Shown here: in pieces, positions 1,968 to 26,955 of the stretch | How positions within the stretch are numbered: the stretch's first letter is position 1 | Layout: each line of letters opens with the position of its first letter | Assembly: GCF_000325665.1 (NCBI RefSeq) | Contig: NC_019908.1 | Span: 2,480,001 to 2,544,000, forward strand | Length of the DNA stretch: 64,000 nucleotides | Direction of reading: 5' to 3' | DNA from: Brachyspira pilosicoli P43/6/78 | Lineage (GTDB): Bacteria > Spirochaetota > Brachyspiria > Brachyspirales > Brachyspiraceae | Notes under the pieces: generated by a model | The model's input: the letters and a program-made list of their open reading frames with translations, nothing else | Database searches by the model: none | What the model was told of the DNA's origin: nothing | Program-made: the position numbers and the translations under genes

Positions 1968-2999
1968 ATGAAAAAAGTTATTTATGTTTTTTTGTTATTT
2001 TCTTCTTTGCTCTTTTGTCAAAATATAGATATATCAAAAAAAGATTTTTATTTTCTTAAGGGAAATATCGGAAGTACTCCTATAAGTATGTATTTATATA
2101 TAGATAATAATAATAATCTTTCAGGTAAATATTATTATGATACTATAAAACAAATTATTAATATAAAGGGAAGTATTAACGGAAATAGTTTTCATCTTGA
2201 AGAGAGCATTAATGATAGAGTGATAGGTTCTTTAGACGGTGAAATTAGCGGTGAAATGGTTTTTACTGGTAATTGGGTTTCTGCTGACAAAAATAATACT
2301 TTTAGTTTTTCTTTTTATATAGACAATAATTATCCTATCAATAAAATTAGGTTTATAAATGCAAGCTTAAATGTTAAAGAAGATAATGGCACTTTTGAAG
2401 CAAGCAGAGATGCGGTTATTATAGCAAATGAGAAAAAAGTAAAAGCAATAAATAGAATATCTTTAGATGTTGATGAAACCAAATCGATAGATGAAGAAAA
2501 TATTACAACTACGCTTAATAATTTAATTTCATCTCAATATAATACTTGGAAAGAAGCCATTAATGATAAGTTTAATATGCAAAGAAATATTGAAGTATCA
2601 TTTATAGATGAGAATATTATATCATTTTCTCTATATAATTATTCTTATGCAGGCGGTGCTCATGGCATATATAATATTCAGCCTAATATATATTTAATAT
2701 CCAATGGAAAAAGAGTTGGTTTAAGTGTATCGGAACTAATAGAAGATGTAGCAGATATTGATTTAATTAATTTAATGCGTATAAAACTTACAGAGAATAT
2801 GTCAGAATCTGATTTCTTTGATTTTAATAGTATTACATTAAGCGATACATTTGATATTACTCCAACAGGTATAAAGTTTATATGGCCTGCTTATAAGATA
2901 TCCGATTATGCTCATGGTATTATTGAAATAGAGTTTAGATATTCTGAATTAAAGCCTTTTGTAAAAGAAGATTCTGTATTTATGTATTTATTTGAATAG
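1968..2999 (+). CDS. Secreted DUF3298/RsiV-type domain protein
   Basis: A 343-residue protein of unknown role. A Sec signal peptide covers about residues 1-18 (hydrophobic VIYVFLLFSSLLF), followed by an N-terminal beta-rich region to about 140. The C-terminal half carries the pattern of DUF3298, with YSYAGGAHG near residue 225 and a late WPAYKISDYAHGIIEIEFRYSEL segment. That domain is found in anti-sigma factor RsiV and in polysaccharide deacetylase-associated proteins, where it may bind a ligand such as lysozyme or glycan. No transmembrane anchor is seen beyond the signal. nth follows only 12 bp after the stop, suggesting co-transcription. The specific function is unknown. Confidence 0.7.
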   Translation: MKKVIYVFLLFSSLLFCQNIDISKKDFYFLKGNIGSTPISMYLYIDNNNNLSGKYYYDTIKQIINIKGSINGNSFHLEESINDRVIGSLDGEISGEMVFTGNWVSADKNNTFSFSFYIDNNYPINKIRFINASLNVKEDNGTFEASRDAVIIANEKKVKAINRISLDVDETKSIDEENITTTLNNLISSQYNTWKEAINDKFNMQRNIEVSFIDENIISFSLYNYSYAGGAHGIYNIQPNIYLISNGKRVGLSVSELIEDVADIDLINLMRIKLTENMSESDFFDFNSITLSDTFDITPTGIKFIWPAYKISDYAHGIIEIEFRYSELKPFVKEDSVFMYLFE

Positions 3000-3011
3000 T
3001 TGAGTTGTTTT

Positions 3012-3665
3012 ATGAATGATAAAGATATACACCCTATAATGAAAGAGCTTACAAAAGTTACCAAGTCTATGCCTATGCCTGTGGTAACAGAGATAAAGCT
3101 TATTACAAACAGAGATGCTTATAAAATATTAATTTCCACTATGCTTTCTCTTAGAACTAAAGACCCTACAACAAGAGATGCTTCAATGAGGCTGTTTGAA
3201 AAAGCAGGAAATGCCAAAGAGATGATAAAGCTTACAGAAGAAGAGATTGCTAAGCTTATTTACCCTGTGGGTTTTTATAATGTAAAGGCAAAAAATATAC
3301 TTGAAGTTTCTCATATGATTATTGATGATTATAATGGAGAAGTACCTGATGAGATAGATGAGCTTTTAAAACTCAAAGGGGTAGGCAGAAAGGTTGCGAA
3401 TTTAGTAGTTACAGAGGCTTTTGACAAAGACGGCATATGTGTTGACACGCATGTACATAGAATATCAAATAGATTCGGCTACGTTCACACAAAGACACCG
3501 GAAGAGACAGAGTTTGCATTGAGAGAAAAGCTTCCAAAAGAATATTGGCGTGTTTATAATGATACATTAGTTGTTTATGGTCAGAACTTGTGTAAGCCCA
3601 TTAGTCCTTTATGCAGTGAATGTACGGTTTCACAGTATTGCGACTATTTCAAGAACAAGAAATAA
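3012..3665 (+). CDS. nth: Endonuclease III (DNA glycosylase/AP lyase)
   Basis: A 217-residue base-excision repair enzyme that removes oxidised pyrimidines and cleaves the abasic site. The helix-hairpin-helix [12 protein letters not shown] holds the catalytic Lys. The catalytic Asp is in [14 protein letters not shown]. The four cysteines of the C-terminal iron-sulfur cluster fit C-x6-C-x2-C-x5-C ([17 protein letters not shown]). I start at the ATG at 3012; a TTG start at 3000 is also open but overlaps the stop of the upstream gene and is less likely. Length matches the bacterial family. Confidence 0.95.
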
Positions 3666-3714
3666 TTTTTTTAGTATATATTAAACAACTATAATTTATG
3701 TTTTTATTTTTATT

Positions 3715-3915
3715 CAACTTTTTCCCGCCGCAAAAAGTTGCAAAAAGTGCAAATAAGAAAATAATACTAAATAATATTAATTATGTATTTTAGCTAAAAG
3801 ATGCAGCCTTTTTGGTTCTTTGTGGCACGCCTCCGGCACTTCCTTCGGTCGCAAAAGAACTGGGGGTGTGTACCCTAAGGGCACGCTTCGCAGGGGGCAA
3901 AGCCACCACTAATAA
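3715..3915 (+). repeat. Interspersed composite palindromic repeat, copy 1
   Basis: Fills most of the gap between nth and the TonB receptor. Module A starts at 3715 (CAACTTTTTCCCGCCGCAAA, closing as AAAAAGTTG). Module B starts near 3801 with ATGCAGCCTTTTTGGTTC, contains a GGTCGCAAAAGAACTGGGGG block and ends with a GGGCACGCTTCGC/GGGGGCAAAGCC segment. It is locally much richer in G and C than its surroundings. The same modules recur many times between 38 and 61 kb. No coding function is apparent. Confidence 0.75.
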
Positions 3916-3950
3916 TAAAAAAAATACAAAACACAAGTATTCAATATAAA

Positions 3951-5900
3951 CTAAAAATTATATCCAACTTCAAATTCAAAGGTAAATGGCTTTGCTACTG
4001 AATAGGCTGATAATATAGGCGTCTTATTCAATATGTTCTTAAAATGCATAGAAAATATTAAATGCTTAAACCATATAGAATAAAATGATATATTCAAATT
4101 ATGAAACTCTTCTGAATAATAGATTGGATAATTTGATGTCATTGCTCTTGGGCTTGAATATATATAATAAATATTAAAAGATAATGAGCTTAATATTTTA
4201 CCATCTGAAACAAAATCATACCCAAGCAGTGCAGTTACAACATTATTAGGCAAACCTATTTTTGGAAGTTTTTCTTCGTTGAGATATGCAAGCTGATAAG
4301 AATATTCTATTTTTGCTTTTATTTTGTTGTAGGTTAAAAAGTAAATATCGTAGCCTATGCTCGAAGAGAATATATGAGATATAGCAGTGTCTGCATTTTC
4401 TGGAATACTGCTGTACCATATTATTTTATTTGTGTAGGTAGTGTATGTGTATGAGGATTCTATTTTTAAGTTTGTTATAGGCTCTAATGATATTTTTGTG
4501 AGTATTTGATTATATGTTTCTGGCTTTAAGTTTGGGTTACTAAAATTGCCGTAATACAAATCATTAAATGTTGGGCTTGTATAATCGCTCATATAGGCAA
4601 AATACAAACTATAGCCTTTATAAAAGTTTAGGTTAAATCCTGCATTATATGCTAAATAATTATTATGTTTTTGATTTGTAAAAAACTCATTTTGATATTC
4701 ATATTTTATGCTTGGCATGAGTGTGAATATTGGAGTATTATTATCCCAGTATCCGAAGGAAAGCTGCATTTCATATTTTATATTTAGAGAATGTCTTTGA
4801 GGGTTATGATTAAAATTAGTTTCTAAGGCATTTTTTTCTTCTGTAAGTATATCGTATCTATATTCGGGGGTTAGCTGATTGTATAATGTAATGGTATTTG
4901 GTATAAACTCGTCCATTCTTTTTAGTGTTGTATTTATTGCTAGTCCGTGAGATTTATAGTCTGATACAAATTTACCTTCTTTGAAATATGGTCTGTCTAC
5001 AAATGAGTCAAACAAATATGAGAGATTTATATTATAATCCAGCACTTCAGAAAATCCGTTGTATGATATAGATGAAGCTAAAGTTGTAAAATTAAACCAA
5101 GAATCTGTATAGCTTATTGGGGGGATTTGGTACTGTGAGGCTGAACTTGAATAAGATATATTTGCAAATGCATTTATATAATTTTTATTTTTAAATATAT
5201 ATTTATAGTTGGCAGAAGAGTTTATTATAAATTGTCTATTGTCTTCAATGTTTCCTTTAATCCATTTGCCTGCGAGGTTTGTGAAGTTATAATAATAATT
5301 AGCATCACTATAATAAGAATCTGCTGTAAAGGTAAATATTTGATTGTCGTCTATATTTTTTGAAAAGAGTATTGAAGGGGCTATTGTGTTGTATGAGCCG
5401 TATGATAATGATAAAAGTATAATATCTTCTTTTGGAGTTTTTGTTGTGATATAAATTGAAGAGCCTATAATTTCTATTTTTTCTATGAGGTTTGAAGGTA
5501 TTCTTCTTAAATCCACACCTGCATCGGCATTGCCTTTAGCAGTATTCATCAAAACACCATTAATATATATTTTTATATTGTCAGCACTTCCTCCTGCAGG
5601 GTCTACTACTTCATTACCCATATAATTACCCTTATTTACAAAGCCAGCCTGATTTTCCAATATTTCTTTAGCATTGTTGTAGCCCATTCTCTCTATTTCT
5701 TCAGAGGTGATGGTTTTGTTATTTACATTTATAGGGATTTTTTTTGATACATTTGGATACTCATTATTTGTTTGAGTATTATTTGTTATTTCTACCTTTG
5801 AAGTAACCCATATACCTCCTTTAAGCTCTCTTATAAGGTATGTTTGAGAATAAAGCATATTTATAGAAGCAAAAAGGAAATATATGATAAAACGTTTCAT
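3951..5900 (-). CDS. TonB-dependent outer-membrane receptor, probably for cobalamin (BtuB-like)
   Basis: A 649-residue protein. A signal peptide covers about residues 1-18, followed by a plug domain from about 60 to 150 (ITSEEIERMGYNNAKEILEN, then IKIYINGVLMN and RRIPSNLIEKIEII). The rest is a beta-barrel rich in alternating aromatic strands that ends in the typical terminal Phe (FEFEVGYNF). Such receptors import scarce ligands using TonB energy. The gene is the second of a two-gene unit, 6 bp after a lipoprotein gene, and the unit is led by a cobalamin riboswitch. That makes vitamin B12 or another corrinoid the likely ligand. The family call is firm from the architecture; the substrate is inferred from the riboswitch. 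Confidence 0.85.
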   Translation of the reverse strand: MKRFIIYFLFASINMLYSQTYLIRELKGGIWVTSKVEITNNTQTNNEYPNVSKKIPINVNNKTITSEEIERMGYNNAKEILENQAGFVNKGNYMGNEVVDPAGGSADNIKIYINGVLMNTAKGNADAGVDLRRIPSNLIEKIEIIGSSIYITTKTPKEDIILLSLSYGSYNTIAPSILFSKNIDDNQIFTFTADSYYSDANYYYNFTNLAGKWIKGNIEDNRQFIINSSANYKYIFKNKNYINAFANISYSSSASQYQIPPISYTDSWFNFTTLASSISYNGFSEVLDYNINLSYLFDSFVDRPYFKEGKFVSDYKSHGLAINTTLKRMDEFIPNTITLYNQLTPEYRYDILTEEKNALETNFNHNPQRHSLNIKYEMQLSFGYWDNNTPIFTLMPSIKYEYQNEFFTNQKHNNYLAYNAGFNLNFYKGYSLYFAYMSDYTSPTFNDLYYGNFSNPNLKPETYNQILTKISLEPITNLKIESSYTYTTYTNKIIWYSSIPENADTAISHIFSSSIGYDIYFLTYNKIKAKIEYSYQLAYLNEEKLPKIGLPNNVVTALLGYDFVSDGKILSSLSFNIYYIYSSPRAMTSNYPIYYSEEFHNLNISFYSIWFKHLIFSMHFKNILNKTPILSAYSVAKPFTFEFEVGYNF

Positions 5901-5906
5901 AATAAT

Positions 5907-6503
5907 TTATTGTTGTTGATTATAATTAAAATCTTTTATAGTTCCAGTTTTAAATGAGCCGTATCCGCCTTCTCCCATTAATTGTTTCCAATATTCTTCT
6001 GTAGGAGGCTCTTTACCTGTAGCACCTGAACCGAAAGCAGAACCAAGCATAAAGTTTCCATCTGTATCTATATGAAATAGCATCCATCTTGAATCTTGAC
6101 CTTGTCTTCTAGGGTCTTCATATAATGCTCCTATCCAGTTTGTGCCTTTCCATTCTATATTTGTAGCGTATATAAAATTACCTAACACTTCTCCATTTTC
6201 TAAATACGTGCCTTTTTCATCTGTTTCCCTTGTGGCAGTTGTTACTCCTGCAGGTACTATTATTTGGTTTGTGAATGTATTTAGCCAGTTTGTTCTAAAA
6301 TATTCTTGCTTGTTTTTATCGCTCCAGCTTAGGCTTAGAATATTTTTATCTGTGAGAAGTTTATATTCTCCTCTTTGTGATTGATTATTATTATTGTTAT
6401 TATTGTTATTGTTGTTGTTGTTTTGCTCATTTGGATTATTTGGGCTTGTACATGATAATAAAAAAATAATAAATGATAGTAATAGAATAAAATATTTTTG
6501 CAT
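5907..6503 (-). CDS. Asn-rich lipoprotein under cobalamin riboswitch control
   Basis: A 198-residue protein with a lipoprotein signal (FIIFLLSC, lipidated Cys at about residue 18). A low-complexity linker with a run of 13 Asn follows, then a globular domain of about 150 residues that I do not recognise (for example LSLSWSDKNKQEYFRTNWLN and WMLFHIDTDGNFMLGSAFG). It is the first gene behind the riboswitch and lies 6 bp before the receptor gene. By analogy with other receptor/lipoprotein pairs it could be a surface or periplasmic corrinoid-binding partner of the receptor; this is inference from context only. The AGGAG ribosome-binding site is 7 bases before the ATG. Confidence 0.75.
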   Translation of the reverse strand: MQKYFILLLSFIIFLLSCTSPNNPNEQNNNNNNNNNNNNNQSQRGEYKLLTDKNILSLSWSDKNKQEYFRTNWLNTFTNQIIVPAGVTTATRETDEKGTYLENGEVLGNFIYATNIEWKGTNWIGALYEDPRRQGQDSRWMLFHIDTDGNFMLGSAFGSGATGKEPPTEEYWKQLMGEGGYGSFKTGTIKDFNYNQQQ

Positions 6504-6510
6504 AAAAAAA

Positions 6511-6528
6511 CTCCTTTAAAATTAGGAG
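6511..6528 (-). promoter_or_regulatory. Ribosome-binding-site hairpin in the riboswitch expression platform
   Basis: On the minus strand a CTCCT box lies 8 bases before the AGGAG ribosome-binding site, so the two can pair and hide it. Together with the upstream aptamer this suggests translational control of the lipoprotein gene. The hairpin is short, so alternative pairings with the aptamer are possible. Confidence 0.5.
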
Positions 6529-6594
6529 CGAATACATAAAAAAGTTTATAAGTTTAAAAAAGAATAAAACTCATAATATAGTGCACTCGACTCA

Positions 6595-6713
6595 ATTGTT
6601 TTATTATTACAATAAGGCATTCCGACTTCGTTAGTTTTTTACAACTAAGCTTTACGGTTGCGGGCCAGCGTGGGATTTGCACCCTCATTCCCCTTATTGC
6701 ACCAAAAGTATAC
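6595..6713 (-). promoter_or_regulatory. Cobalamin riboswitch
   Basis: Read on the minus strand, the conserved blocks appear in order: GGTGC (6699-6703), AAGGGGAATGAGGGTGC with AAATCCC (6673-6696), the core CCCGCAACCGTAAAGC (6649-6664), and a B12-box-like GAAGTCGGAATGCC (6616-6629). An 8-bp closing stem pairs 6692-6699 with 6610-6617. This matches the cobalamin aptamer consensus. It precedes a lipoprotein and a TonB receptor, a typical context for B12 repression. Binding of adenosyl- or another cobalamin form is expected from the family but cannot be distinguished here. Confidence 0.92.
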
Positions 6714-6734
6714 AACAAAAAAAATATGTGTCAA
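6707..6734 (-). promoter_or_regulatory. Promoter of the riboswitch transcript
   Basis: The minus strand has a perfect TTGACA at 6734-6729 and TATACT at 6712-6707 with a 16-bp spacer. Transcription would start almost exactly at the first conserved base of the aptamer. Confidence 0.65.
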
Positions 6735-6776
6735 GAAATATTCTTTTTTTATCTTCTTTTACATAAATATTAATAC

Positions 6777-6805
6777 TTGACATACAGACGTTTTTTTATT
6801 ATCAT
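6777..6805 (+). promoter_or_regulatory. Promoter for the 6854-9295 gene group
   Basis: TTGACA (6777-6782), a 17-bp spacer and TATCAT (6800-6805) precede the gene at 6854 by about 50 bp. The promoter is divergent from that of the riboswitch transcript. Confidence 0.6.
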
Positions 6806-6853
6806 ATCACAAATATTTTTTATGCTTATTAGTTTTTATGGAGAGAGAATATT

Positions 6854-7897
6854 GTGATTAGCTATTTTCAAAAAAATAAGAAGAGAAAAAGTATATTAAA
6901 TAAAATTAAAGAAAAAAGAATAATTATAAATGATTTTTATGTTCCTTTAGGTATAGTGCCTATAGAATCTTCCAAACCTAAAGAGGGCGTGAGTATAGAA
7001 TTAAAAACTTCTGAGGACAGTGCTGATATGTATTCTTACAGTATTTCAATATCAGCAAATAGGCTTTCAGATTTATTTCTCAAATTAATAAAACTATTCC
7101 CATATTACGCTACTATGGTGATAGAAAGAAAAAGCGAGGATATAAACAGAGAGTTTGACGTGCTTATGAGCGACCCTGATATATCTTTGAGCGAGATTAG
7201 AAGAGTGTTTAAAAAATATAATGAGCTTTGGGTAGAATGCGGTTTTGTTGGTTTTGGGATTATTGATGAATATAATGATTTTGAGATTTTTATTAATTTA
7301 GATAAAGAAATCATTATAAACACACCTTTTAAAAATATTAAAAAGATTAACAGAATATTAGATTCTTTTAATCTTTTAGATGAGACTCCAGTTTTTATTA
7401 GTTCTGATGTTCACTGGCATTATTCTTTATCTTCTATAGTTTCTTATGAGAGCTATAGCGAAACTTATGAATATATATTTGATTATTATGATATTATTAA
7501 TAATTTAAAGCATAGTTTTGGTTTTGTGATGATTAATGATGATGAAAACATAAATAAAGAGCCTAAATGGTGGAATGTTACTGTTCGCTGTCTTGGAAAG
7601 TGTAAGACTGTATCTTTTGTTTCTACATATTATATAGTAGCAAACACAATAGAAGAGATGGAAACTGTAATAGAAGAAAAAATGAAAGAGCTTGATATAG
7701 AGTATTATTATATATACGACTATTACAATGTTGACCCTAACAATTATCATCATAAAAGCGTAAACTTATCAAACAAAGATAATTTATTTTTTAGGAAAGC
7801 ACCTTTTGGAATATGGGCAGAGTCTGACATATTTATAAGCAAGGTAAAAGATATTAGTTTGTTTTATATAAATAGAAGTTATGAAAGAGCATATTAA
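6854..7897 (+). CDS. Hypothetical protein, 347 residues
   Basis: I do not recognise this protein. It starts at a GTG with a GGAGAG ribosome-binding site about 8 bases upstream; no better ATG lies nearby. It is soluble-looking, with no signal peptide or membrane segment, and has a charged N-terminus (KKNKKRKSILNKIKEKR). Acidic and aromatic stretches such as YEYIFDYYDII and DIEYYYIYDYYNVD occur in the C-terminal half. The last 17 bases overlap the start of the NUDIX gene, and a DUF1848 gene follows, so the three are probably one operon driven from the promoter at 6777. No function is proposed. Confidence 0.7.
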   Translation: MISYFQKNKKRKSILNKIKEKRIIINDFYVPLGIVPIESSKPKEGVSIELKTSEDSADMYSYSISISANRLSDLFLKLIKLFPYYATMVIERKSEDINREFDVLMSDPDISLSEIRRVFKKYNELWVECGFVGFGIIDEYNDFEIFINLDKEIIINTPFKNIKKINRILDSFNLLDETPVFISSDVHWHYSLSSIVSYESYSETYEYIFDYYDIINNLKHSFGFVMINDDENINKEPKWWNVTVRCLGKCKTVSFVSTYYIVANTIEEMETVIEEKMKELDIEYYYIYDYYNVDPNNYHHKSVNLSNKDNLFFRKAPFGIWAESDIFISKVKDISLFYINRSYERAY

Positions 7898-8408
7898 AAA
7901 TCAATTTAAATACTGTCCCTATTGCGGAGAGAAAGATTCTTTTATATATAACGGCGTGAAAATATTTAACTGTTCAAAGTGCGGGAGGAGCTATTTTGTC
8001 AATCCCGCTTCTGCGGGCGGAATGGTTGTTGAAACACCTAAAGGCATTGTATTTGTTGAAAGAAAGTTTGAGCCTAAGAAGGGCTATATTGATTTGCCGG
8101 GCGGGTTTTGCGAGCCTTATGAGAGAATAGAAGATGCCGTTAGAAGGGAGCTTTTTGAAGAGACTAATATAAAAATAGATAATATACATTTTCTTATAAG
8201 CGGAAGTAATGAGTATATTTATGAGGGTATGATGTATGTTACTACTGATATGTTTTTTTATGCTAAAATAGATTATGTTCCTGATGTTAAACCTTCTGAT
8301 GATGCATCTGAAGTGGTATTTATAAAAAAAGAGAATATTGATTTTGACAAATTAGCTTTCAAATCATCAAAAGAAGCTTTAATAGAATATATTAAAATAA
8401 CTCAATAA
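7881..8408 (+). CDS. NUDIX hydrolase with N-terminal zinc ribbon
   Basis: A 175-residue protein. Residues about 10-35 form a zinc ribbon (YCPYCGEKD then CSKCGRSY, two CxxC knuckles). The NUDIX box GFCEPYERIEDAVRRELFEE follows near residues 76-96, with the REL and EE metal-binding glutamates intact. The layout resembles NudC-type pyrophosphatases and zinc-ribbon ADP-ribose or NADH hydrolases, which cleave nucleoside diphosphates linked to another group. The substrate is not determined. The start overlaps the upstream gene by 17 bases and the DUF1848 gene begins 5 bp downstream, indicating tight coupling. Confidence 0.88.
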   Translation: MKEHIKNQFKYCPYCGEKDSFIYNGVKIFNCSKCGRSYFVNPASAGGMVVETPKGIVFVERKFEPKKGYIDLPGGFCEPYERIEDAVRRELFEETNIKIDNIHFLISGSNEYIYEGMMYVTTDMFFYAKIDYVPDVKPSDDASEVVFIKKENIDFDKLAFKSSKEALIEYIKITQ

Positions 8409-16148: not shown

Positions 16149-19100
16149 ATGAAATTAAAGCTATTATTATTACCATTATTTATTTTATTATCCTGTGCAT
16201 CCAGTCAAAAGAGTGCAGATTCTATTTTTAATAGCAGACCTTTCTTAAGAGAGTATAAAAGATACTCTCTAACTTCCGGAGAGGGTAACCCTGTTTTAGA
16301 TTCTGTTATAGACAGAGAAGGAACTTGGGTATACTATTCCAGAGAAAATGCAGGAAATACAGATATATTTGCTGTAGATTCTTATACGCTTGAAACTTTT
16401 AGACTCACAAGAAGCCCAGGAGTAGATTCTTCTGTTTCTGTGGATAGTAAATCAAAATATTTGGTATTCTCTTCTACTAGAGATGATGCTTTTTCTGATA
16501 TTTACTTATACAAGCTAGTTAATCTTGGTATTAGAACTTCAAAAAATAATTTAGAAAATCTAGAGCAAAGTGTAGTAAGAATAACAGATTATAAAGGCTA
16601 TGATACAGACCCAGAAATCTCTCATAATGCCGATATGATAGCTTTTGTTTCAGACAGAGAAGATAATATTAAAAAACTCTTCACAGTTAAGCCAAATGGT
16701 AAGGAAATAATTAAAAGAGCAGATATAGAAGCCGCTTCTCCTACATTCTCTTTTAATGATAGACATATTGCTTTTATTACTTCTAAAATAGGAGAGCCTT
16801 ATTCTCAATTAGCAGTAGTAGACTTGCAAGCTAACTCCTACATCACAAATGATATTCAAACCAATTTGATGATTTTAACTGATACTAAAACCTTTAAGTT
16901 TAATCCGTCATTCTACAACAATGACACTATAATTTATTTTGAAATAGCAAATGATACTGATAAAGACGGCAATTTAACATATAATGATAAAAGAAGATTA
17001 ATGTCTTATTCTTTGTCTACAGGACAATATTATGTATTAGAAGAAAATACAAGTTTAAGCACATTTAATGTAGCATATGAATCTGCTTTGGTAGGAAGCT
17101 ATGTATTAAGCACTTCAGGCACTAGTATAGTAACTATGGGCTCTACTAAAGAATATTTCATTAAAGATGCTAATGCCAATGATATGTATAATACCTTTGT
17201 TGCTTTGCCTTACAATAGAAAAGTTGAAGTAATAGAGAAGTTTTCAGAGTATTTCCCTTCAGATGAAGATAGGGGTAATGTATCAAAGGCTTATTTTGAT
17301 GTAATGTATCAGGCCTATACTAATAAAAACATAGATATTTACAATACTTCAAAAAATGTTCTAACAACAGAATATACTAACACTTTTTACGGATTTTTGG
17401 CTTTAAAGATAGATGAAAATTTTGACACTAATGATAATTGGCTTAGTGCTTCATATTATACTACAAATGAATCAATTATCACAAGCAATGAAAATATAGT
17501 AAATGCTTTATCTTGGGCAGGATACATATCTGCTAATGAAAAATATAATAAAAATAACACAAATGCTTCAACATTGGAAATTTTAAATAGTATAATAGAC
17601 TATGACAGCAGCAAAGATTTATATGTATTAATATCAAAATTATATTCTCATTCGCTTGAAGATAATAATTATAAATATCCTGCAGATGAGGACTTGTATA
17701 ATAAACCTTACAGAAGAAAAGATTTAATATTTGCAGACAGACTTGAAATAGCAAAAGATTTTATAAAAGATTCAAAGATTCCTTATCAAACTATAATAGA
17801 TAACTCTCACCCATATGCACCATTATCTGTAGCAAGCAGACTTATATATTTAGACGGACTTATACTTGCTAAAAATTATGATGAAGCTACAAATTTATTT
17901 CAGCCCTATATGGAATCAAAAAATGATATAATGCTTGCTTTGGGTTATTATGCTAATGCTAAAATATTATTAGACAAAAAAGATGATGCAGCTTATCAAT
18001 TATTAGTAAATGCCGTAAAAAGCGGAGGCAAAAACTTTGAGCCTACTTATGAAGCAAAAGAATCAAAAAGAATACTTGCCAACTATTATAGAACTTTAGC
18101 GGATAATGCTTATAATGAAGAGAGATACAATATTGCCTATGACAATTATCAAGAAGTTTTAGTTTATAATCCTAATGATGCCAATGCTTCTTCAAGAATT
18201 ATTGAAAGCGGACTTAGGGCATACAGCACTATAGAATCACTTGAACAAACCATAGCAGAGAGGGAGAGAACTCTTTTATCTACAAGATATTCAGAGCATG
18301 CAGCACATGCAGAGCTTGCTAATGCTTATTATTATTTGGCTAATAGATATTACGGCATAGCTATGTCTAAACAATATGACAGCGAAAGGTATGTGCTTAG
18401 CGAGAAAAAAAGAGAAGACGGATTTTATTTGTATTTGAATAAGTCTTTTAATACTATAGTAGATAAAGCAGTCTCTTATATGGATTTTGCTATATTCCTT
18501 TATCCTGATGAAGAGAATTATTATATAAAAAAGGCTGAAATGCTTACATTTGCAGAAGCTCTAAAGATGCAGGTTCTTCAAAGCGATAAAACATATAAAA
18601 GCATAATGGAATTAGTGCCAAGCTATAAAGACAATAATGTAAATAATGATAAATATATAGGATACAATCAATTAACTCTTCAAACACCAAATTTAGAAAG
18701 CGAAATAATTGATTCTCTTATAATGGCTAAAAGCAAGATAAAAACTAAGCCTAATGTTGTATCTATAATGCTTGCAAACTCTTACTTAATAAACGGCAGA
18801 TACTCTGATGCGGCTAATGAATATAAAGAAGCTGAAGTTTTATTAAACAGTGTAGGAAGCGATAAGAGTAAGGCTTGGTATCATTTCTTCTATGGATATT
18901 CTTTGTGGATGAACAATGATATTAATGGAGCTTATAGAGAATATAATAAAGCCAGAGAGATTTTTGAAAGACTTGGAGACAGTGAAGCAGTATACAAAAT
19001 AGTAGGCTATACTTCAGTTGCAGCCATTGAACAAAAAGACTACACTAAAGCTATAGAATCATTATTAGAAAGAAATACTATAATTACAAATAATGTAGAG

Positions 19101-22100
19101 CAAAATGAACTTAATGAACTTCTTATTGCTGCTTGCTACTTAAAACTTGAAGATTATAACAATGCATTAAAATACTGTGATAATGTGAAGGCAAAAATAG
19201 ATAGTTTGGATTCTTCTTCATATAATCCAAATTATGTAAGTATTACTTTATATGGTGCTAATATCAATGTTGTAAACTTAGGGTTAGCTTCTTTTGGAGG
19301 ATATATACCGGGTGAGCCTCTTAATGTTGATAAACAGCAGATGCTTTATTCTATATATCAAGAGCTTTATGAGAAGATGGGAAGATATTCAGAGTCAAGA
19401 GATGCTTTATCTTCTTATAGAAATTATATTATTAAAGATAAGCCTAAAAAATCAATACAGCCTTTAATGCTTGCTACCTACTACAACAATGAAGGTTATT
19501 TATATTATAGGCAGGGCTCTGTTTCTAATTCTATTATGTCTTTTAGAAAGTCTATAGAAGAATACAGAAAAACTATAAACTCTAATGCCCTTAATAATAA
19601 TCCTAGTTTAATATACGAAAATGCTCAAAATGATGCTAAAAACTATTTGAGCTTATCATCGCTTTATTTAAGATATTTATCTCAAAATGATTTAACTGCT
19701 ATAAGAAGAGAGTTTTTTATGGAGCTCTTTAACACTACAAAAACTCTTCAGGTGCTTTCTACAAATAACAGCGTAAGCTCTAAAGACAGATTATTATTAT
19801 ATTCACATATAGCAGCTTTTCAATATATAATGGCTTTGAAGCTTACTTCTGAAGCTAATGATTTAATGCTTAACAGAAAGAAAAATAATGACGGCTCTTT
19901 GGATATGAGCATGCATGATGTTAATGTTCAAAGACTTTATATGCTAAAAAATGCTATAGATAGATATAAATATATTCTCTCATCAAACTCAAACTTCCCT
20001 GTGGACTTAAAGACTGAAATTATTATTCGATACAATTTAGCTAAAGCCTATGAGCTTGCGGGAAATATTGAAGAGGCTGCGAGGGAATATATATCTGCTT
20101 TTTCTAAGGCTAAAGTTAATGCTTTTGCAGTTGAGGAGATTGCTATACTTACTACTTTAATAGATTTTAGTGAGAAGTATAGAGATATTTATCCTGACAG
20201 TCTTGATGAGCCTGTAATGTATGTGTTTAGAATATTACAGAGATTAAGAGAAAGTGTGTTTATGATTACTTTTGTAGAAGAAAATAATCTCATACTGCAA
20301 GAAGCAAGGTATAAAGTAATAGAGTTTTTGGAAGGCAATTATCCTGATGCGAGCATTAATATACTTGCTATGTTTGATGCAATAGACATGCGTAGGAAGT
20401 TTTTAGATAAAAGACTCTATACACTCGGAGAGAATAATTATTATCTTAGAGATTATTATAAACTATATGAAAAAGCTCTCTATGCTTATCAAAAATATTT
20501 GTCTGCAGTAACAGCTAATTATGACAAAAAGCTTGAAGAATCATCTCTAAAAGAAATTACAGAATATGAAAAAGAGGCTATTAAAACTTTTGAAAATACG
20601 CCTATAAAAAATATAGTAATTTGCGATGTGAAGGCTACTGATATAGATAAATCAATGCGTAGTGATGAAACTCTAATATGGGATACTTATTTGGGTTATA
20701 GATTTGTGAGGGAGAACAAAAAGACTTATTTCTATTATCAAACTAATGACTTAATAAAAACAAAAGATTATGTTACTCATATTGGTGAGAGTCCTATTGT
20801 TATGAGTAATAATAATGCCTTTGTACGCGAGCTTTATGATTCTACTGAATATATGCTTCCTCCAAAGGTTGCCTATGTTGATAACAGATTAATTTCTTTT
20901 TATAAGGTTAATAGAAATGACAGAAAAAATATAGATATGACTGCCTCTTCTGCAAGCAACACTCTTCTTACAAATAATGTAAACTATGCAGATAATGCAA
21001 ATGATTATAGAGAAAATGATTATATAAAAAATGATGTAAGAGTGATGCAGGTTAATTATGTAGATAATGAAGATGACACTAATATATATACCAATAATAT
21101 AATTACAAACAATGCAGCTACTAATACTCTTCAAGCTACTAACACTGTTCAAGCTACTAATAGAGTGAGAAAGTTTAGGTTTGTGCCTTTTAATGATTTA
21201 TTAACTAATGCCTATGTGCCTTTGGTTGTAGATATCACAGATGCTAAGGCTTCTGATATATCAAACTTAATGAAAAAGAATTTCTATATCCTTTATGCAG
21301 ACAAGAAAACTTTTGATGAAAATAAAGAAGTATTAAAAGAAGTTAATAATATAGCATTAGTAGTAGGAAATTCTAATACATATTCAAGAATAATGTTTTA
21401 TACTAATTATTTCCAAAGTCTTGTAAGCAATTCTTTGGAAGAGAGCATGAAAGGCTATGACAACAATCTATTTACAGTATACGGAAAGCCAGATAACAGC
21501 ATGACAACTCTTTCAAATGAAACTTATAATTTCAAAAGCCGTCTGCTTGCATCATACCAAAAAACGCCTTCTGTTAGCATGATTTCTAATATTATAAGCT
21601 ATTCACAGTCTCCTAATGAGGTTATGGACAATTATGCTTATTTTATAGAAGATAGATATAATGCAAAAGACACCAACACTGCATACAATCTCTCTGAAGA
21701 CGGATATAAATATTTTGCTTCCTCCTACAGTAATATAAGCGATTCTAATGCATACTACTTTATGAAGGCAATGCTTCCTGTTTATAGAAGACTTGGAGAT
21801 GAAGGGGCTGTTAAGGGTGCTAGAAGAGCTTTGCATTTTATGTATCTATACACAAATGAAAATTATCATTTAATAGATGAATACTTTACTCCTCGCACAT
21901 TATCAAGATTCTTAAAATCAGGCGAAACTGTAGAAAATAATGTAAGATACGTAAATTATATAGCACAGAGAACTACAGGCACAAATAAAAATAAAATATT
22001 AGAAATAGCAGTGCTTTATGATTTGATATATGCTAAAACTCCTTTAGATAAAGTAACAAACTTACTCACTCTAATGACAAATACAAATCAAATACTCACA

Positions 22101-23141
22101 GTTGCAAATACAATATTAGATAATAAAACTACAAATGAAGCTAATATATTCTTAACTATGGATTATATTTACGGCAATCAGTATATATTTGAAGCTAATA
22201 CTATTTCATCATTTGCTAATTTATTCTATTCGCTTTATAAGGATAAGCCAAGTTATATATACGGACTTCTAAATAAAATAAGAGTGCCTGAGAGCGATTT
22301 TAGAAAGAATATTTATAATGCATATAACATATTTAGTAATGAAAACACTAATACTATGTTTATATTCTATTCTTATGAAGATGATAAATACACTTCTTAT
22401 AGTTATGTTGTGGGTGATAATGAAGTAAAAAAATCTTCTCTTGTATCTATTGACAAATTAAGAGATAGTTTAACTGCATTTACAAATGCTCCTAATGCTA
22501 ATGAAAGAATGAAAGCATTAAAATCTATAGAGTCCCAAATGCTTCCTTCAGATGTATCCAAAAATGCATCAAGGGTGAATACTGTTTATATTACAGGCTC
22601 TTATCCTAATTTATTTACTATACCTTTTGCTTATTTTAATGACTTTAAGAATGCTGATGTTATAAAGATAAGAGAGTTAAAGTACGTGCCTATGGACGTT
22701 ATTAATGTAGGTAAGGCTAATATTAAATTAAACACTCAAACTAATTTTTACACATCATTAGAGAGTTTAGCTGTTGGTTATGCTGATGGAAAAAGAAAAG
22801 TGCCTCTCACTCACTATATAGGAATAGACACCAACTACAATAAGCCTTACAATAAAGAAGATATATTCCTCTCTCCTGCTAGAAATGCTGATATATTTAA
22901 GTATTTAAGCGACAGAAGCAACAATAAATTAATGTTTACATACAGCACAGATTTATCAGGCGATTATTATACAGCTATGAAGTATTTATATATGAACTTT
23001 GATAATGGCGTTATAGATTCTTACAGATATATTAAAAACAATGCTGTAAACCCTAATATAATAAATGCTTCAGATATGAATACTTTATTTAAAGGAAGCT
23101 ATACTTTATTTGACTATATACTTCCAGGAATACCAAAATAA
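16149..23141 (+). CDS. Giant (2330-residue) lipoprotein with propeller-like and TPR-like regions
   Basis: The signal LLLLPLFILLSCASS gives a lipidated Cys at about residue 16. Residues about 30-240 hold TolB/PD40-like beta-propeller repeats (WVYYSRENAGNTDIFAVDS, YLVFSSTRDDAFSDIYLYK, MIAFVSDREDNIKKLFTV). From about 440 to 1450 there are many helical TPR-like repeats (for example YNIAYDNYQEVLVYNPNDANA, INGAYREYNKAREIFERLGD). The C-terminal 900 residues are less regular; NTVYITGSYPNLFTIPFAYF near 2160 recalls the late part of CHAT protease-like domains, a weak resemblance. It is probably attached to an envelope membrane and acts as a large scaffold. The start has an AAAAGG ribosome-binding site. 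I do not know a characterised relative. Confidence 0.85.
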   Translation: MKLKLLLLPLFILLSCASSQKSADSIFNSRPFLREYKRYSLTSGEGNPVLDSVIDREGTWVYYSRENAGNTDIFAVDSYTLETFRLTRSPGVDSSVSVDSKSKYLVFSSTRDDAFSDIYLYKLVNLGIRTSKNNLENLEQSVVRITDYKGYDTDPEISHNADMIAFVSDREDNIKKLFTVKPNGKEIIKRADIEAASPTFSFNDRHIAFITSKIGEPYSQLAVVDLQANSYITNDIQTNLMILTDTKTFKFNPSFYNNDTIIYFEIANDTDKDGNLTYNDKRRLMSYSLSTGQYYVLEENTSLSTFNVAYESALVGSYVLSTSGTSIVTMGSTKEYFIKDANANDMYNTFVALPYNRKVEVIEKFSEYFPSDEDRGNVSKAYFDVMYQAYTNKNIDIYNTSKNVLTTEYTNTFYGFLALKIDENFDTNDNWLSASYYTTNESIITSNENIVNALSWAGYISANEKYNKNNTNASTLEILNSIIDYDSSKDLYVLISKLYSHSLEDNNYKYPADEDLYNKPYRRKDLIFADRLEIAKDFIKDSKIPYQTIIDNSHPYAPLSVASRLIYLDGLILAKNYDEATNLFQPYMESKNDIMLALGYYANAKILLDKKDDAAYQLLVNAVKSGGKNFEPTYEAKESKRILANYYRTLADNAYNEERYNIAYDNYQEVLVYNPNDANASSRIIESGLRAYSTIESLEQTIAERERTLLSTRYSEHAAHAELANAYYYLANRYYGIAMSKQYDSERYVLSEKKREDGFYLYLNKSFNTIVDKAVSYMDFAIFLYPDEENYYIKKAEMLTFAEALKMQVLQSDKTYKSIMELVPSYKDNNVNNDKYIGYNQLTLQTPNLESEIIDSLIMAKSKIKTKPNVVSIMLANSYLINGRYSDAANEYKEAEVLLNSVGSDKSKAWYHFFYGYSLWMNNDINGAYREYNKAREIFERLGDSEAVYKIVGYTSVAAIEQKDYTKAIESLLERNTIITNNVEQNELNELLIAACYLKLEDYNNALKYCDNVKAKIDSLDSSSYNPNYVSITLYGANINVVNLGLASFGGYIPGEPLNVDKQQMLYSIYQELYEKMGRYSESRDALSSYRNYIIKDKPKKSIQPLMLATYYNNEGYLYYRQGSVSNSIMSFRKSIEEYRKTINSNALNNNPSLIYENAQNDAKNYLSLSSLYLRYLSQNDLTAIRREFFMELFNTTKTLQVLSTNNSVSSKDRLLLYSHIAAFQYIMALKLTSEANDLMLNRKKNNDGSLDMSMHDVNVQRLYMLKNAIDRYKYILSSNSNFPVDLKTEIIIRYNLAKAYELAGNIEEAAREYISAFSKAKVNAFAVEEIAILTTLIDFSEKYRDIYPDSLDEPVMYVFRILQRLRESVFMITFVEENNLILQEARYKVIEFLEGNYPDASINILAMFDAIDMRRKFLDKRLYTLGENNYYLRDYYKLYEKALYAYQKYLSAVTANYDKKLEESSLKEITEYEKEAIKTFENTPIKNIVICDVKATDIDKSMRSDETLIWDTYLGYRFVRENKKTYFYYQTNDLIKTKDYVTHIGESPIVMSNNNAFVRELYDSTEYMLPPKVAYVDNRLISFYKVNRNDRKNIDMTASSASNTLLTNNVNYADNANDYRENDYIKNDVRVMQVNYVDNEDDTNIYTNNIITNNAATNTLQATNTVQATNRVRKFRFVPFNDLLTNAYVPLVVDITDAKASDISNLMKKNFYILYADKKTFDENKEVLKEVNNIALVVGNSNTYSRIMFYTNYFQSLVSNSLEESMKGYDNNLFTVYGKPDNSMTTLSNETYNFKSRLLASYQKTPSVSMISNIISYSQSPNEVMDNYAYFIEDRYNAKDTNTAYNLSEDGYKYFASSYSNISDSNAYYFMKAMLPVYRRLGDEGAVKGARRALHFMYLYTNENYHLIDEYFTPRTLSRFLKSGETVENNVRYVNYIAQRTTGTNKNKILEIAVLYDLIYAKTPLDKVTNLLTLMTNTNQILTVANTILDNKTTNEANIFLTMDYIYGNQYIFEANTISSFANLFYSLYKDKPSYIYGLLNKIRVPESDFRKNIYNAYNIFSNENTNTMFIFYSYEDDKYTSYSYVVGDNEVKKSSLVSIDKLRDSLTAFTNAPNANERMKALKSIESQMLPSDVSKNASRVNTVYITGSYPNLFTIPFAYFNDFKNADVIKIRELKYVPMDVINVGKANIKLNTQTNFYTSLESLAVGYADGKRKVPLTHYIGIDTNYNKPYNKEDIFLSPARNADIFKYLSDRSNNKLMFTYSTDLSGDYYTAMKYLYMNFDNGVIDSYRYIKNNAVNPNIINASDMNTLFKGSYTLFDYILPGIPK

Positions 23142-23266: not shown

Positions 23267-23563
23267 ATGGACTTATTAGCACATATTTTAGCAACAGAAA
23301 ATGATGAGAAGTTTATTAAAAGCTTACTTTCAGAACTTTTTACCAAAGATGAGCAGGATATGATTCAGCAAAGGCTAAGGATAGTCACCTTGCTCAGGAG
23401 GAAAATGCCTCAATATGAAATAGCAAAAAGTCTGAATGCTAGTCTCTGTTCCATTACAAGAGGGGCAAGAGAATTAAAAAAACAAGATAGTGCTTTGGCA
23501 GTTATAGTTGATAAATACCTAATGAACAATAAAGAGTTTCAAGAATCCTTAAACAAATCATAA
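23267..23563 (+). CDS. TrpR-like YerC/YecD family DNA-binding protein
   Basis: A 98-residue helical protein of the Trp-repressor fold. LFTKDEQDMIQQRLRIVTLL followed by the helix-turn-helix MPQYEIAKSLNASLCSITRGAREL fits the YerC/YecD group rather than classical TrpR. The ligand and target genes are unknown, and no tryptophan genes are nearby. AGGAG lies 8 bases before the ATG. The 3' end overlaps the convergent hemW gene by 6 bp. Confidence 0.85.
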   Translation: MDLLAHILATENDEKFIKSLLSELFTKDEQDMIQQRLRIVTLLRRKMPQYEIAKSLNASLCSITRGARELKKQDSALAVIVDKYLMNNKEFQESLNKS

Positions 23564-24685
23564 AAATAATAAACTAATCTCATCTGCATAATTAAAATAA
23601 TTTTCTTTTATAGATAAATATTCATCTGTTATAAGAAAATAATTTTTGTTGTTTTTTATAATTGATGAATATTTGTCTTTAAAGTCTTCTTTAAACATTT
23701 TATTATAATTATTTATATTTATGCCTTTTACTGTTCTTAGAGAGAGAAATATAAACTCTTTTTTTTGTGTTTCTCTGTCTATATATTCTATTTCTTTAAT
23801 AGGTTTTTTATTTTGTTTAATGTGTTCAATATATGTTTTTACATTTTTTATATTTTCGTATCTTTCTCTGTTGTAGTATCCTACAGCAGAAGCTCCTAAG
23901 CCTAAATAATTTTTTAGTTTCCAGTAGTTTGAGTTATGTATTGACTCATAATTATTAATAGAGTAGTTTGATATTTCGTATCTTATAAAGCCCAAATCTT
24001 TTAATGTGTTTGAAGATATTTCATAATATTCTACACTTTCATCTTCTTTAGGCAGATAATCTCTCCATTTCTCTTCAAGTGATTTTGTTAGCTCCAAATA
24101 GTAAAGAGATATATGTTTTGTTTTGGGGAGTAATTCTAATGCTTTTAGAATGTCTTTTTTTGTTTGAAGCTTATCATTTAGAGGGAGACCTGATATAAAG
24201 TCAAGGGATATATTTTCTATAGTAGAATTATTTATTATTTTTAGAGCATTTACTATTTCTTCTAACTCTGTATGTCTGTTTATAAGAGACAAAGATTTTT
24301 CATTGAATGTTTGAAGACCTAGAGATATTCTTATATTGTCTATACTTTCTAAAAAATTAATATATTCACTGTTTATATCATTAATGTTTGATTCTATTGT
24401 TATTTCTTTTATTAGTTTTATGTCTTGATAATTTTTAAGAATGTTTAATATGTTGTCTAATAAATATTTAAGTAAATTAGTGTTTAATACTGAAGGCGTG
24501 CCTCCTCCAAAGTATATTGTATTTATCTCTTCATTATAATCATCTATTCTTAATTTTAATTCTTCAATTAATGCATCAGCATAGTTTTTATATATTTCTT
24601 TTTCATTCATATTAACAACAGAAAAAAAATTGCAGTAGCTGCATTTGTATGTACAGAAGGGTATATGAATGTAGAGGCCTGACAT
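23558..24685 (-). CDS. hemW: HemW-type radical SAM protein (heme chaperone family)
   Basis: A 375-residue protein. Near the N-terminus, YIHIPFCTYKCSYCNFF provides the CxxxCxxC motif for the radical-SAM iron-sulfur cluster. TIYFGGGTPSVLN is the next family block, followed by SLGLQTFNEKSLSLINR and LDFISGLPL. Proteins with this layout were long labelled oxygen-independent coproporphyrinogen III oxidase, but HemW lacks that activity and delivers heme. The start codon overlaps the stop of the sigma factor gene (TAATG), so the two are translationally coupled. It is the last gene of the minus-strand operon REC-LpxC / sigma / hemW. Confidence 0.88.
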   Translation of the reverse strand: MSGLYIHIPFCTYKCSYCNFFSVVNMNEKEIYKNYADALIEELKLRIDDYNEEINTIYFGGGTPSVLNTNLLKYLLDNILNILKNYQDIKLIKEITIESNINDINSEYINFLESIDNIRISLGLQTFNEKSLSLINRHTELEEIVNALKIINNSTIENISLDFISGLPLNDKLQTKKDILKALELLPKTKHISLYYLELTKSLEEKWRDYLPKEDESVEYYEISSNTLKDLGFIRYEISNYSINNYESIHNSNYWKLKNYLGLGASAVGYYNRERYENIKNVKTYIEHIKQNKKPIKEIEYIDRETQKKEFIFLSLRTVKGININNYNKMFKEDFKDKYSSIIKNNKNYFLITDEYLSIKENYFNYADEISLLFL

Positions 24686-25539
24686 TAGTTTAAGAAATCT
24701 TTAAGAGAGCTATATCTTTTGGAATGCATTTTTTTAAGAGCCTTTTTTTCTATCTGCCTTATACGCTCTTTTGTAAATGAATACTTCTCTCCAACTTCTT
24801 TTAATGTTTTTTTCTCTTGGTCAAGACCGTATCTTGCATTGATTATTTCTTTTTCTATATCAGAAAGCTCTTCCATAGCGATTTTTAATTCTTCAGTAAG
24901 CTCTTTATCAGATAATATATCTTCTACAGTTTTGCTGTTTTTATCTTCAACTACATCAGCCAATCTATCTTTAACACCGTCCATATTAAAATCTTTTTCA
25001 AGCGACACATATTCATTATTCATAGACATAATATTTCTAATTTCTCTAGGCTCTTTTTTTAATATAGCCGCCAAATCCTCAACATCAGGCATATGACCAG
25101 TTTTGTAGTAGCATTGATGAACAGCCCTCTCCAAATCCACCAAATCCATAGCCTTATTCAAAGGAAGCCTTATTAGTCTTGATTTTTCATTTATAGCCCT
25201 TAATATGCTCTGCCTTATCCAATAAACAGCATAAGAAATAAAATGATATCCCTTGTCTGGGTCAAATCTGTCTGTAGCTATTATAAGACCTAAATTGCCT
25301 TCGCCTATCAAATCCTCTAAAAGTAAACCGCTGTTTTTATACTGCTTGGCAATGCTTATTACAAACCTTAAATTGCTTCTTATAAGTTTAGCCCTAGCTT
25401 GAGAATCGCCTTTTTTTAATCTTTGAGTTAATTCTATTTCCTCTTCTCTAGTAAGAAGTTTCTCTCTCTTGGCATCTGCAAAATATAAGGATATATTATT
25501 ATTTTCTTCTATATTACTCTTTGTTCTACTATTTGGCAT
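24685..25539 (-). CDS. Alternative sigma-70 factor of the RpoD/RpoS type
   Basis: A 284-residue sigma factor. Region 1.2 (REKLLTREEEIELTQRLKKGD) is followed by region 2 with LIRSNLRFVISIAKQY, EDLIGEGNLGLIIATDRFDP and YAVYWIRQSILRAI. A linker and region 3 come next, then region 4 with VGEKYSFTKERIRQIEKKAL. It lacks the long N-terminal region of primary sigma factors, so it is more likely an alternative RpoS/RpoH-like factor. The stop overlaps the hemW start. It lies 17 bp downstream of the REC-LpxC gene, an unusual pairing that links envelope lipid synthesis to a transcription programme. The target promoters are unknown. Confidence 0.9.
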   Translation of the reverse strand: MPNSRTKSNIEENNNISLYFADAKREKLLTREEEIELTQRLKKGDSQARAKLIRSNLRFVISIAKQYKNSGLLLEDLIGEGNLGLIIATDRFDPDKGYHFISYAVYWIRQSILRAINEKSRLIRLPLNKAMDLVDLERAVHQCYYKTGHMPDVEDLAAILKKEPREIRNIMSMNNEYVSLEKDFNMDGVKDRLADVVEDKNSKTVEDILSDKELTEELKIAMEELSDIEKEIINARYGLDQEKKTLKEVGEKYSFTKERIRQIEKKALKKMHSKRYSSLKDFLN

Positions 25540-25556: not shown

Positions 25557-26837
25557 TTATAAATATCTATTAGCAAGGTCATGTACTACAGAATGGTTAA
25601 AGGAATGTGAAGATTTATTAGCCACAACCCTTCCTATTATAGGTCTTCCTAATATATACAAGTCTCCTATTATATCTAAAATCTTATGTCTTACAAACTC
25701 ATTATCGAAATGAAGTTTAGTATTAATAACCTTTCCGTCGCAAAGCAGTATATGGCTTCCTATCATACCGCTTCCAGCCATACCCATCTTCTGAGCATAA
25801 TCAATATTGTCTATAGTGTTAAAAGACCTAGCCCTTCCTACTTCCTCAGTAAACTGCTCGAAATTGTCAAACTTGTATGTATACTCCTGAACACCAATAG
25901 TGCCGGCAAAATCTATACGCAAGCTCACCTCAAGACCATTATATGGAGAAAGTATTATGTAAGTTTCATTATCATTAACATTGCCATAAGTAAGAGTTTC
26001 ATCTATCACTATAGGCTCTATATAATCATCTTGCTCAACAAAACCAGCCTCTTTCAAAGCATCGCAAAATACCAAAGCAGAACCATCAACATTAGGAACT
26101 TCTCCGTCGCATTTTACTATTAAATTTGTTATTCCCATCATATGAAGTGCCGCTAAGAAATGCTCAGTTGTTTTTATATATCTGTTTCCTGCCACCAATG
26201 CAGTAGAGTTTACCGCTCCTGATTTATCTTTTGAAAGTATATTTGTGTGGTCTAGTTTTATTTGAGTATTTGTATTGATATCAACAAAAACTATGCCTGT
26301 ATTTACTTCAGCAGGTACTAAAGTAAGAGCTGTTTTTCTTCCTTCCATTAGAGCAAAACCGCTTACTACTATACTTTTAGCAATAGTTCTTTGTTTTACT
26401 TTATATTTATTATTAGTTTTATGATGATGTGTATTGTTGTTGTTTGATGTATTATTTTCTATGCTGTTTTCATTCTTTTTAAATATTTCATCGCAAGAAG
26501 ATAATAATTTGCTTACACTAATAGGCTTTTCCAAAAAGTCATAAGCCCCCATTTTAGTAGCCCTTACAGCAGTTTCAACCCCCGCATGTCCGCTCATCAT
26601 TATCACAGCAGTATCAGGATATTTCTCTTTTATGTTTGATAATATATCCAAACCATCTACATTAGGAAGCCATACATCTAAAAATACTAAATCTACTTTT
26701 TTACTCTCAAATGTTTTTAAAGCTTCTTCGTAGTTTTTAGCAATATCAACATCATATCCTTCATCTTCTAATACATTCTTACAAGCATTTAAAATATCTT
26801 CTTCATCATCTATTATTAATATATTGTTTTTTATCAT
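25557..26837 (-). CDS. lpxC: Fusion of a response-regulator receiver domain to LpxC
   Basis: A 426-residue protein. Residues 1-120 are a complete receiver domain with Asp10/Asp11, phospho-acceptor Asp54 in FLDVWLP, Ser82 and Lys104 in EKPIS. Residues about 121-145 are an Asn/His-rich linker. From about 148 to 426 it is LpxC, the zinc deacetylase for the committed step of lipid A synthesis (VKQRTIAKSIVVSG, then TTEHFLAAL with Glu225 and His226, HKILDIIGD with zinc ligands His384 and Asp388, and catalytic His411 in KSSHSFNH). The usual GLHTG block near the LpxC start reads ALMEG here. It is the first gene of an operon with a sigma factor and hemW. No sensor kinase is nearby. Confidence 0.93.
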   Translation of the reverse strand: MIKNNILIIDDEEDILNACKNVLEDEGYDVDIAKNYEEALKTFESKKVDLVFLDVWLPNVDGLDILSNIKEKYPDTAVIMMSGHAGVETAVRATKMGAYDFLEKPISVSKLLSSCDEIFKKNENSIENNTSNNNNTHHHKTNNKYKVKQRTIAKSIVVSGFALMEGRKTALTLVPAEVNTGIVFVDINTNTQIKLDHTNILSKDKSGAVNSTALVAGNRYIKTTEHFLAALHMMGITNLIVKCDGEVPNVDGSALVFCDALKEAGFVEQDDYIEPIVIDETLTYGNVNDNETYIILSPYNGLEVSLRIDFAGTIGVQEYTYKFDNFEQFTEEVGRARSFNTIDNIDYAQKMGMAGSGMIGSHILLCDGKVINTKLHFDNEFVRHKILDIIGDLYILGRPIIGRVVANKSSHSFNHSVVHDLANRYL

Positions 26838-26955
26838 AATTCAATTTTCCTACTCCAAATATAATATTATATTAACCATATAAAATCAATATACTATATT
26901 TATAATTTATCGGAATTATGTTAATAATATATTATTTATAGTTTTTCAATATTTT

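Follow-up and report, generated by a model that had tools for sequence, protein, structure and literature searches.

The rec-lpxC Locus of Brachyspira pilosicoli

The window (the whole stretch of 64,000 nucleotides of the chromosome of the intestinal spirochaete Brachyspira pilosicoli P43/6/78 that was analysed) carries on its minus strand one clean open reading frame, rec-lpxC, in which an N-terminal response-regulator receiver is joined through a linker to the deacetylase LpxC, and which is followed by the genes for a sigma-70 family factor and a radical-SAM HemW-like protein (Table 1). Lying on the same strand, rec-lpxC and the sigma-70 family gene are probably co-transcribed. The sigma-70 family gene adjoins rec-lpxC in all the Brachyspira loci read and in the loci L037 and L038, though not in L039, L032 and L033, and the HemW-like gene is kept at the same loci as the sigma-70 gene. 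Sigma-factor genes also adjoin rec-lpxC at four loci of another phylum (L052, L272, L274 and L281). The window further contains, at 16149-23141 on the plus strand, a large open reading frame of 2330 aa with a lipoprotein-like signal at its start.

Table 1. Features of rec-lpxC and its surroundings, with the candidate partner kinase (window positions unless the chromosome is named)
Feature	Position	Strand	Evidence or remark
rec-lpxC	25557..26837	minus	426 aa; one clean ORF; Pfam
AGGA, Shine-Dalgarno-like	26848..26851	minus	10 nt 5' of ATG; predicted, by consensus only
NtrX-type receiver, aa 6-113	26499..26822	minus	Pfam PF00072 Response_reg, E 1.4e-32
Phospho-acceptor Asp54 codon	26676..26678	minus	invariant, 50 fused proteins
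Linker, aa 114-148	26394..26498	minus	aa 122-142 predicted disordered, pLDDT <50
LpxC catalytic domain, aa 149-422	25572..26393	minus	Pfam PF03331, E 1.2e-69; Foldseek vs E. coli LpxC 4is9, E 6.3e-31
Glu225-His226, general base and zinc ligand	26160..26165	minus	invariant, 50 fused proteins
His384-Lys385-x-x-Asp388 zinc motif	25674..25688	minus	invariant, 50 fused proteins
His411, catalytic	25605..25607	minus	invariant, 50 fused proteins
Sigma-70 family factor gene	24685..25539	minus	17 nt 3' of rec-lpxC; Pfam
Radical-SAM HemW-like gene	23558..24685	minus	overlaps sigma-70 family gene; Pfam
NtrY-type membrane kinase L133	chromosome 1716457-1718223		HisKA + HATPase

The first-pass annotation had described one protein joining a complete receiver (Asp54, Ser82, Lys104) to an LpxC with its zinc and catalytic residues intact (His226, His384, Asp388, His411), and both parts of this description are borne out by the Pfam matches to the two domains and by the residues themselves. 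The end points that it gave for the gene are correct, and the minus strand is an addition to them. The fused protein scored 235.3 bits against PF03331 (cut-off 27) and 203.6 bits against the NCBIfam model TIGR00325 lpxC (cut-off 187.25), and its best NCBIfam receiver match was NtrX, far below the own cut-off of that family. The Pfam scan returned no FabZ domain; apart from the receiver and LpxC it gave just one further match, to PDE8A_N, which overlaps the receiver and is below threshold. In the alignment of 50 fused proteins, the receiver residues (the acidic pair D10/D11, D54, S82 and K104) are all invariant, as are E225 (E. coli E78), H226, H384, K385, D388 and H411 of the LpxC part, where the zinc ligands H226, H384 and D388 are the equivalents of E. 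coli H79, H238 and D242. Both domains were folded with confidence by AlphaFold2, with the disordered segment of the linker between them, and the LpxC part of the model superposes on the E. coli and P. aeruginosa enzymes with an rmsd of about 2 A. By its full-length family matches and intact catalytic residues the fused protein is an LpxC deacetylase, of predicted activity. An annotation or frame artefact is ruled out by the clean single frame kept order-wide, and chance read-through is excluded because the fusion is kept in all members of the order read and in other phyla.

Lipid A is the anchor of the outer-membrane glycolipid, and LpxC is the committing enzyme of its synthesis. The 2,555,556-bp chromosome contains one copy of lpxC, the fused gene, and the genome search recovered no second, stand-alone lpxC; LpxB is encoded in the same genome. 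The genome paper of the sister species B. hyodysenteriae lists lpxA, B, C, D, kdtA and lpxL, and LOS production is reported for Brachyspira (PMC2650404). Being the sole LpxC, with LpxB present and with the lipid A genes of B. hyodysenteriae as a parallel, the fused protein very probably acts as the housekeeping deacetylase.

Distribution of the Fusion

LpxC was found in 110 of 393 Spirochaetota genomes. Each member of Brachyspirales has a single LpxC, encoded in a frame of 427-458 aa (a range that leaves out the genome G147, where the match is incomplete), and the receiver is present in all that were fetched and read. Separate receiver and LpxC genes were sought in these close relatives and none were found; the fusion is order-wide and constitutes the sole LpxC. 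Identity of the fused proteins falls to about 46% within the order and to 33-42% in other phyla. The LpxC of other spirochaetes is for the most part encoded in frames of roughly 275-405 aa, with no receiver in those read, except for three genomes outside Brachyspirales, of the families f12 and f22, in which LpxC is fused. In Nitrospinota (65 genomes), nearly all LpxC lie in frames of 460-800 aa, and the listed loci are mostly of the REC-AAA-LpxC form. The fusion was also found in Nitrospirota, in Acidobacteriota, and in a group of Thermodesulfobacteriota/Myxococcota-like MAGs reached through the locus L052, so that REC-LpxC spans at least five phylum-level groups. Accordingly, the earlier statement that LpxC is normally a stand-alone enzyme has to be loosened, in that fusions with FabZ are known as well (PMC3087551). 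In plasmid records, the matches were to ordinary LpxC or to receivers, and no match covered 80% of the query.

Apparent single proteins joining a histidine kinase, a receiver and LpxC (frames of 1007-1423 aa) were rejected: in the cases with a kinase, the long frame proved to be made of overlapping reading frames surrounding a distinct kinase gene, and one such candidate, L242, has the domains REC and LpxC only. In the family f31 (G137, G175, G186, G192 and G198), LpxC-like open reading frames of 353-439 aa give weak PF03331 matches (E 1e-10 to 1e-18), and in most of those genomes they accompany a normal LpxC.

One Fused Family and Its NtrX Ancestry

In the tree of 121 LpxC domains (66 fused, 55 plain), all 66 fused domains, which come from at least five phylum-level groups, lie on one side of one branch. 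In a careful tree of 85 domains the fused branch has a support of 100/100, with one change between the plain and fused states in 200 of 200 bootstrap trees. The fused LpxC domains are thus of single origin and form one old family, and independent repeated fusions of LpxC are ruled out. The receiver tree does not confirm a single origin because it has too few columns (117; AU p 0.13 and 0.07). Brachyspirales are sister to the fused copies of Nitrospirota in the LpxC tree (100/100) and stand apart from the remaining Spirochaetota with a fusion (AU p 0.003), by which a spirochaete-wide inheritance of the fusion is ruled out; these two placements together point to a horizontal transfer of the fused lpxC. 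As for the receivers, those of Brachyspirales (L001, L032, L033, L037-L039 and L046) are not grouped with the fused receivers of Nitrospirota (AU p 0.045) and stand beside spirochaete NtrX in one tree, which weakly suggests a possible receiver replacement in Brachyspirales.

The kind of receiver is marked by a tryptophan two residues after the phospho-acceptor aspartate, present in 92 of 92 motif-matching fused receivers and in 10 of 10 NtrX-like ones, and in none of the other B. pilosicoli receivers inspected. A sigma-54-type AAA+ domain lies between the receiver and LpxC in 40 fused proteins (Pfam). The GAFTGA motif is needed for the contact with sigma-54. Among these 40 AAA+ domains, Walker A is kept in 37, and GAFTGA and the Walker B DE in none, compared with 14, 11 and 13, respectively, of 14 NtrX-like AAA+ domains; judged by these motifs, the AAA+ of REC-AAA-LpxC is dead as a sigma-54 activator. 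Forms with the receiver only (L262-L265) nest among the AAA+ forms in the LpxC trees, a pattern showing that the AAA+ domain was lost repeatedly to give REC-LpxC. Neither the sigma-54 AAA+ domain nor a Fis-type HTH was found by Pfam in the B. pilosicoli fused protein, and, lacking the HTH and an AAA+ with GAFTGA, it was not filed as an NtrX. Since the receiver is NtrX-type and the dead AAA+ is still present in Nitrospinota, it seems that an NtrX regulator exchanged its DNA-binding end for LpxC. Among 76 loci of other phyla with an unfused lpxC, 9 have this gene upstream of one for an NtrY-type kinase, and at 7 of the 9 an NtrX-type regulator comes next; such an lpxC-NtrY-NtrX gene order is what one would expect as the point of departure for the fusion.

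The C-Terminal Tail and the Linker

The number of residues past the end of the LpxC model has a median of 0 in the fused proteins and of 22-24 in plain LpxC, though a few unfused LpxC have short C-terminal tails too. The C-terminal end of the E. coli enzyme is needed for its degradation by FtsH (cited in PMC3333781; reviewed in PMC12444477). Because the fused branch has one origin, the tail loss counts as one event, not many; the absence of the tail is in keeping with a shift from control by proteolysis to control by the receiver. The linker varies in length across the fused family and, being also predicted to be disordered, argues against a rigid relay between the receiver and LpxC, whereas a dimer-driven, tethering or steric control would be compatible with it.

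Candidate Partner Kinase

Of the 44 fused loci outside the order with enough sequence 5' of the fused gene to judge, 10 have a gene for an NtrY-type kinase immediately upstream; at the other 34 no NtrY adjoins it. All nine of the upstream kinases scanned have PF19312 NtrY_N, HAMP, PAS, HisKA and HATPase domains. At the locus L277 of the Acidobacteriota group (2593-8381, minus strand), a REC-AAA regulator and a kinase, each encoded separately, lie near a fused REC-LpxC.

B. pilosicoli encodes five HisKA kinases, of which one is near an OmpR-type regulator, one is paired with an NtrC-type regulator, and three have no assigned partner, among them the membrane kinase L133. Eleven NtrYs, nine of which adjoin a fused lpxC, were matched against B. 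pilosicoli, and the best hit of all 11 was L133. Profile alignment (hhalign) of L133 with the spirochaete kinases directly upstream of NtrX gave a probability of 100% and E 4.3e-82 over 532 columns covering the sensor and catalytic halves; for the NtrYs found at lpxC loci, the E value was 1.2e-65. It is called NtrY-type and not NtrY because Pfam (E 1e-3) detected in it HisKA and HATPase only, without NtrY_N, HAMP and PAS. A homologue of L133 is present in 18 of 18 Brachyspirales tested, with no NtrX beside the kinase in the stretches examined, while at nine other spirochaete loci NtrX does lie beside a kinase of this family. Brachyspira thus has an NtrY-type kinase without NtrX, plus an NtrX-type receiver without an adjacent kinase, and from this we infer that L133 is paired with the receiver of rec-lpxC. 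The co-occurrence of the kinase and the fused LpxC across spirochaetes was set aside as uninformative on the pairing: it is no proof, because the two genes are far apart in Brachyspira and the L133 family is found also in spirochaetes without LpxC.

In several Brachyspira, a conserved receiver-like open reading frame of 122-126 aa is convergent with the NtrY-type kinase gene (L282 1121-1492, plus strand, near 1716.1 kb of the chromosome); as a kinase partner this 123-aa product is disfavoured, since it has Asn at the phospho-Asp site and is a pseudo-receiver. An unusual sensor arrangement was observed in a further histidine kinase, L135 (385-1923, plus strand, near 793 kb of the chromosome), which has an N-terminal NUDIX-like domain (TIGR00052).

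Proposed Mechanism and Its Rivals

The conserved phosphorylation and catalytic residues, the adjacent NtrY-type kinases and the tail loss all fit phospho-control of LpxC, which is likely and would change the activity in one direction or the other. They lend partial support to the first-pass suggestion that lipid A synthesis is switched directly by phosphorylation. As a whole, the best explanation, to which a probability of about 0.6 may be given, is an ancient NtrX-derived fusion in which L133 would provide the input and phosphorylation of Asp54 would set the LpxC output. The domain architecture and the ancestry are well supported: LpxC was joined to an NtrX-type regulator in exchange for its DNA-binding end, giving REC-AAA+-LpxC, and later repeated losses of AAA+ gave REC-LpxC. 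In Brachyspira, the orphan NtrY-type membrane kinase would autophosphorylate and hand the phosphate to Asp54 of the fused receiver, whose state would set the deacetylase output via the flexible linker, the receiver standing in for control through the C-terminal degradation tail. Outer-membrane synthesis may in this way be controlled directly by a sensor.

The most probable of the alternatives, although it is itself unlikely, changes only the phosphate donor: in Brachyspira the receiver would be phosphorylated by the NUDIX-like kinase L135, by the GAF-domain kinase L138, through cross-talk from the NtrC-paired L134, or by acetyl phosphate. L135 and L138 are likewise without an assigned response regulator, but it is L133 that every NtrY tried matches best, and L134 is already partnered with the NtrC-type L146. 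Somewhat less probable again is that phosphorylation controls the amount or the place of LpxC and not its catalysis, by docking the protein on the membrane kinase or by handing it over to a protease in the manner of RssB with RpoS. The flexible, disordered linker would suit such a role, as would the N-terminal membrane regions of NtrY, given that lipid A synthesis takes place at the inner membrane. It would be in keeping, too, with the lack in the fused proteins of the C-terminal tail used for the proteolysis of E. coli LpxC (PMC12444477). However, no adaptor or protease gene was recognised beside the fused genes in the loci read, where the neighbours are partly annotated, and nothing favours this reading over direct control.

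It is improbable that the receiver works independently of phosphorylation, kept for folding or oligomer formation with its signalling role a relic. Receivers can serve as dimerisation modules, and many fused genes have no neighbouring kinase; yet the acidic pair, the phospho-acceptor Asp, the Ser and the Lys show no exception in the 50 aligned proteins, even where identity between phyla drops to about 33%, NtrY is kept next door in ten loci, and a relic would be expected to lose its Asp, as the small receiver-like frame beside the Brachyspira kinase has done. By far the least probable is that the fused protein is a specialised or decoy copy other than the housekeeping deacetylase. The coexistence of plain and longer-frame, fused-type LpxC in five Nitrospirota genomes (read and confirmed in three of the five) gives this idea some ground, against which stand the lack of any LpxC besides the fused one in Brachyspira, in every order member searched and in Nitrospinota, the intact catalytic residues of the fused LpxC, and the LOS that Brachyspira is reported to make (PMC2650404).

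Comparison with Known Systems

In LPS and LOS synthesis, LpxC is the main control point and a drug target, and it is known to be controlled by proteolysis (FtsH, LapB, YejM; Lon) and at the level of transcription. If direct phospho-control holds, the two-component receiver would be a third, post-translational mode of LpxC control, and an envelope sensor would be linked directly to outer-membrane synthesis. The route from a transcription factor to an enzyme can be read in its stages (gene neighbour, REC-AAA-enzyme, REC-enzyme), and one protein opens two questions to study, namely what NtrY senses at the envelope and whether the flux through LpxC can be set allosterically. The REC-LpxC family is apparently undescribed so far: a search of open-access literature, with domain databases and subscription journals outside its scope, brought up no account of a receiver joined to LpxC, and a 2025 review of lipid A regulation mentions neither a receiver nor a fusion (PMC12444477).

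With the stand-alone LpxC of E. coli, P. aeruginosa and Aquifex, the fused protein shares the fold and the zinc and catalytic residues, at 29-35% identity to the solved LpxC structures, and it differs from them by the N-terminal receiver, the missing C-terminal tail and a separate, more divergent tree branch. With NtrX (NF051870), the partner of NtrY, the fused family shares the receiver type, the Trp at Asp+2, the upstream NtrY-type kinase in ten loci and, in part of the family, an AAA+ remnant; unlike NtrX, it has no working AAA+ and no HTH, and its output is an enzyme. CheB, RpfG and PleD are response regulators with enzymatic output and are likewise receivers fused to an enzyme, but they act in protein methylation or on cyclic-di-GMP, whereas the fused LpxC acts on the committed step of envelope biosynthesis.

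Two-component systems that also target lpxC are the NtrYX of R. sphaeroides and Caulobacter and DVU2934 of Desulfovibrio vulgaris (PMC7240162, PMC12444477, PMC3333781). In the R. sphaeroides NtrYX mutant, the lpxC transcript changed 8.8-fold and LPS about two-fold, an effect considered indirect by its authors (PMC7240162). NtrYX and DVU2934, which targets lpxC in D. vulgaris (PMC3333781), work on the level of the transcript, whereas here the receiver and the enzyme are one chain. LpxC-FabZ (PMC3087551) is likewise LpxC fused to another domain, but its partner is metabolic and C-terminal and it has no receiver, unlike REC-LpxC.
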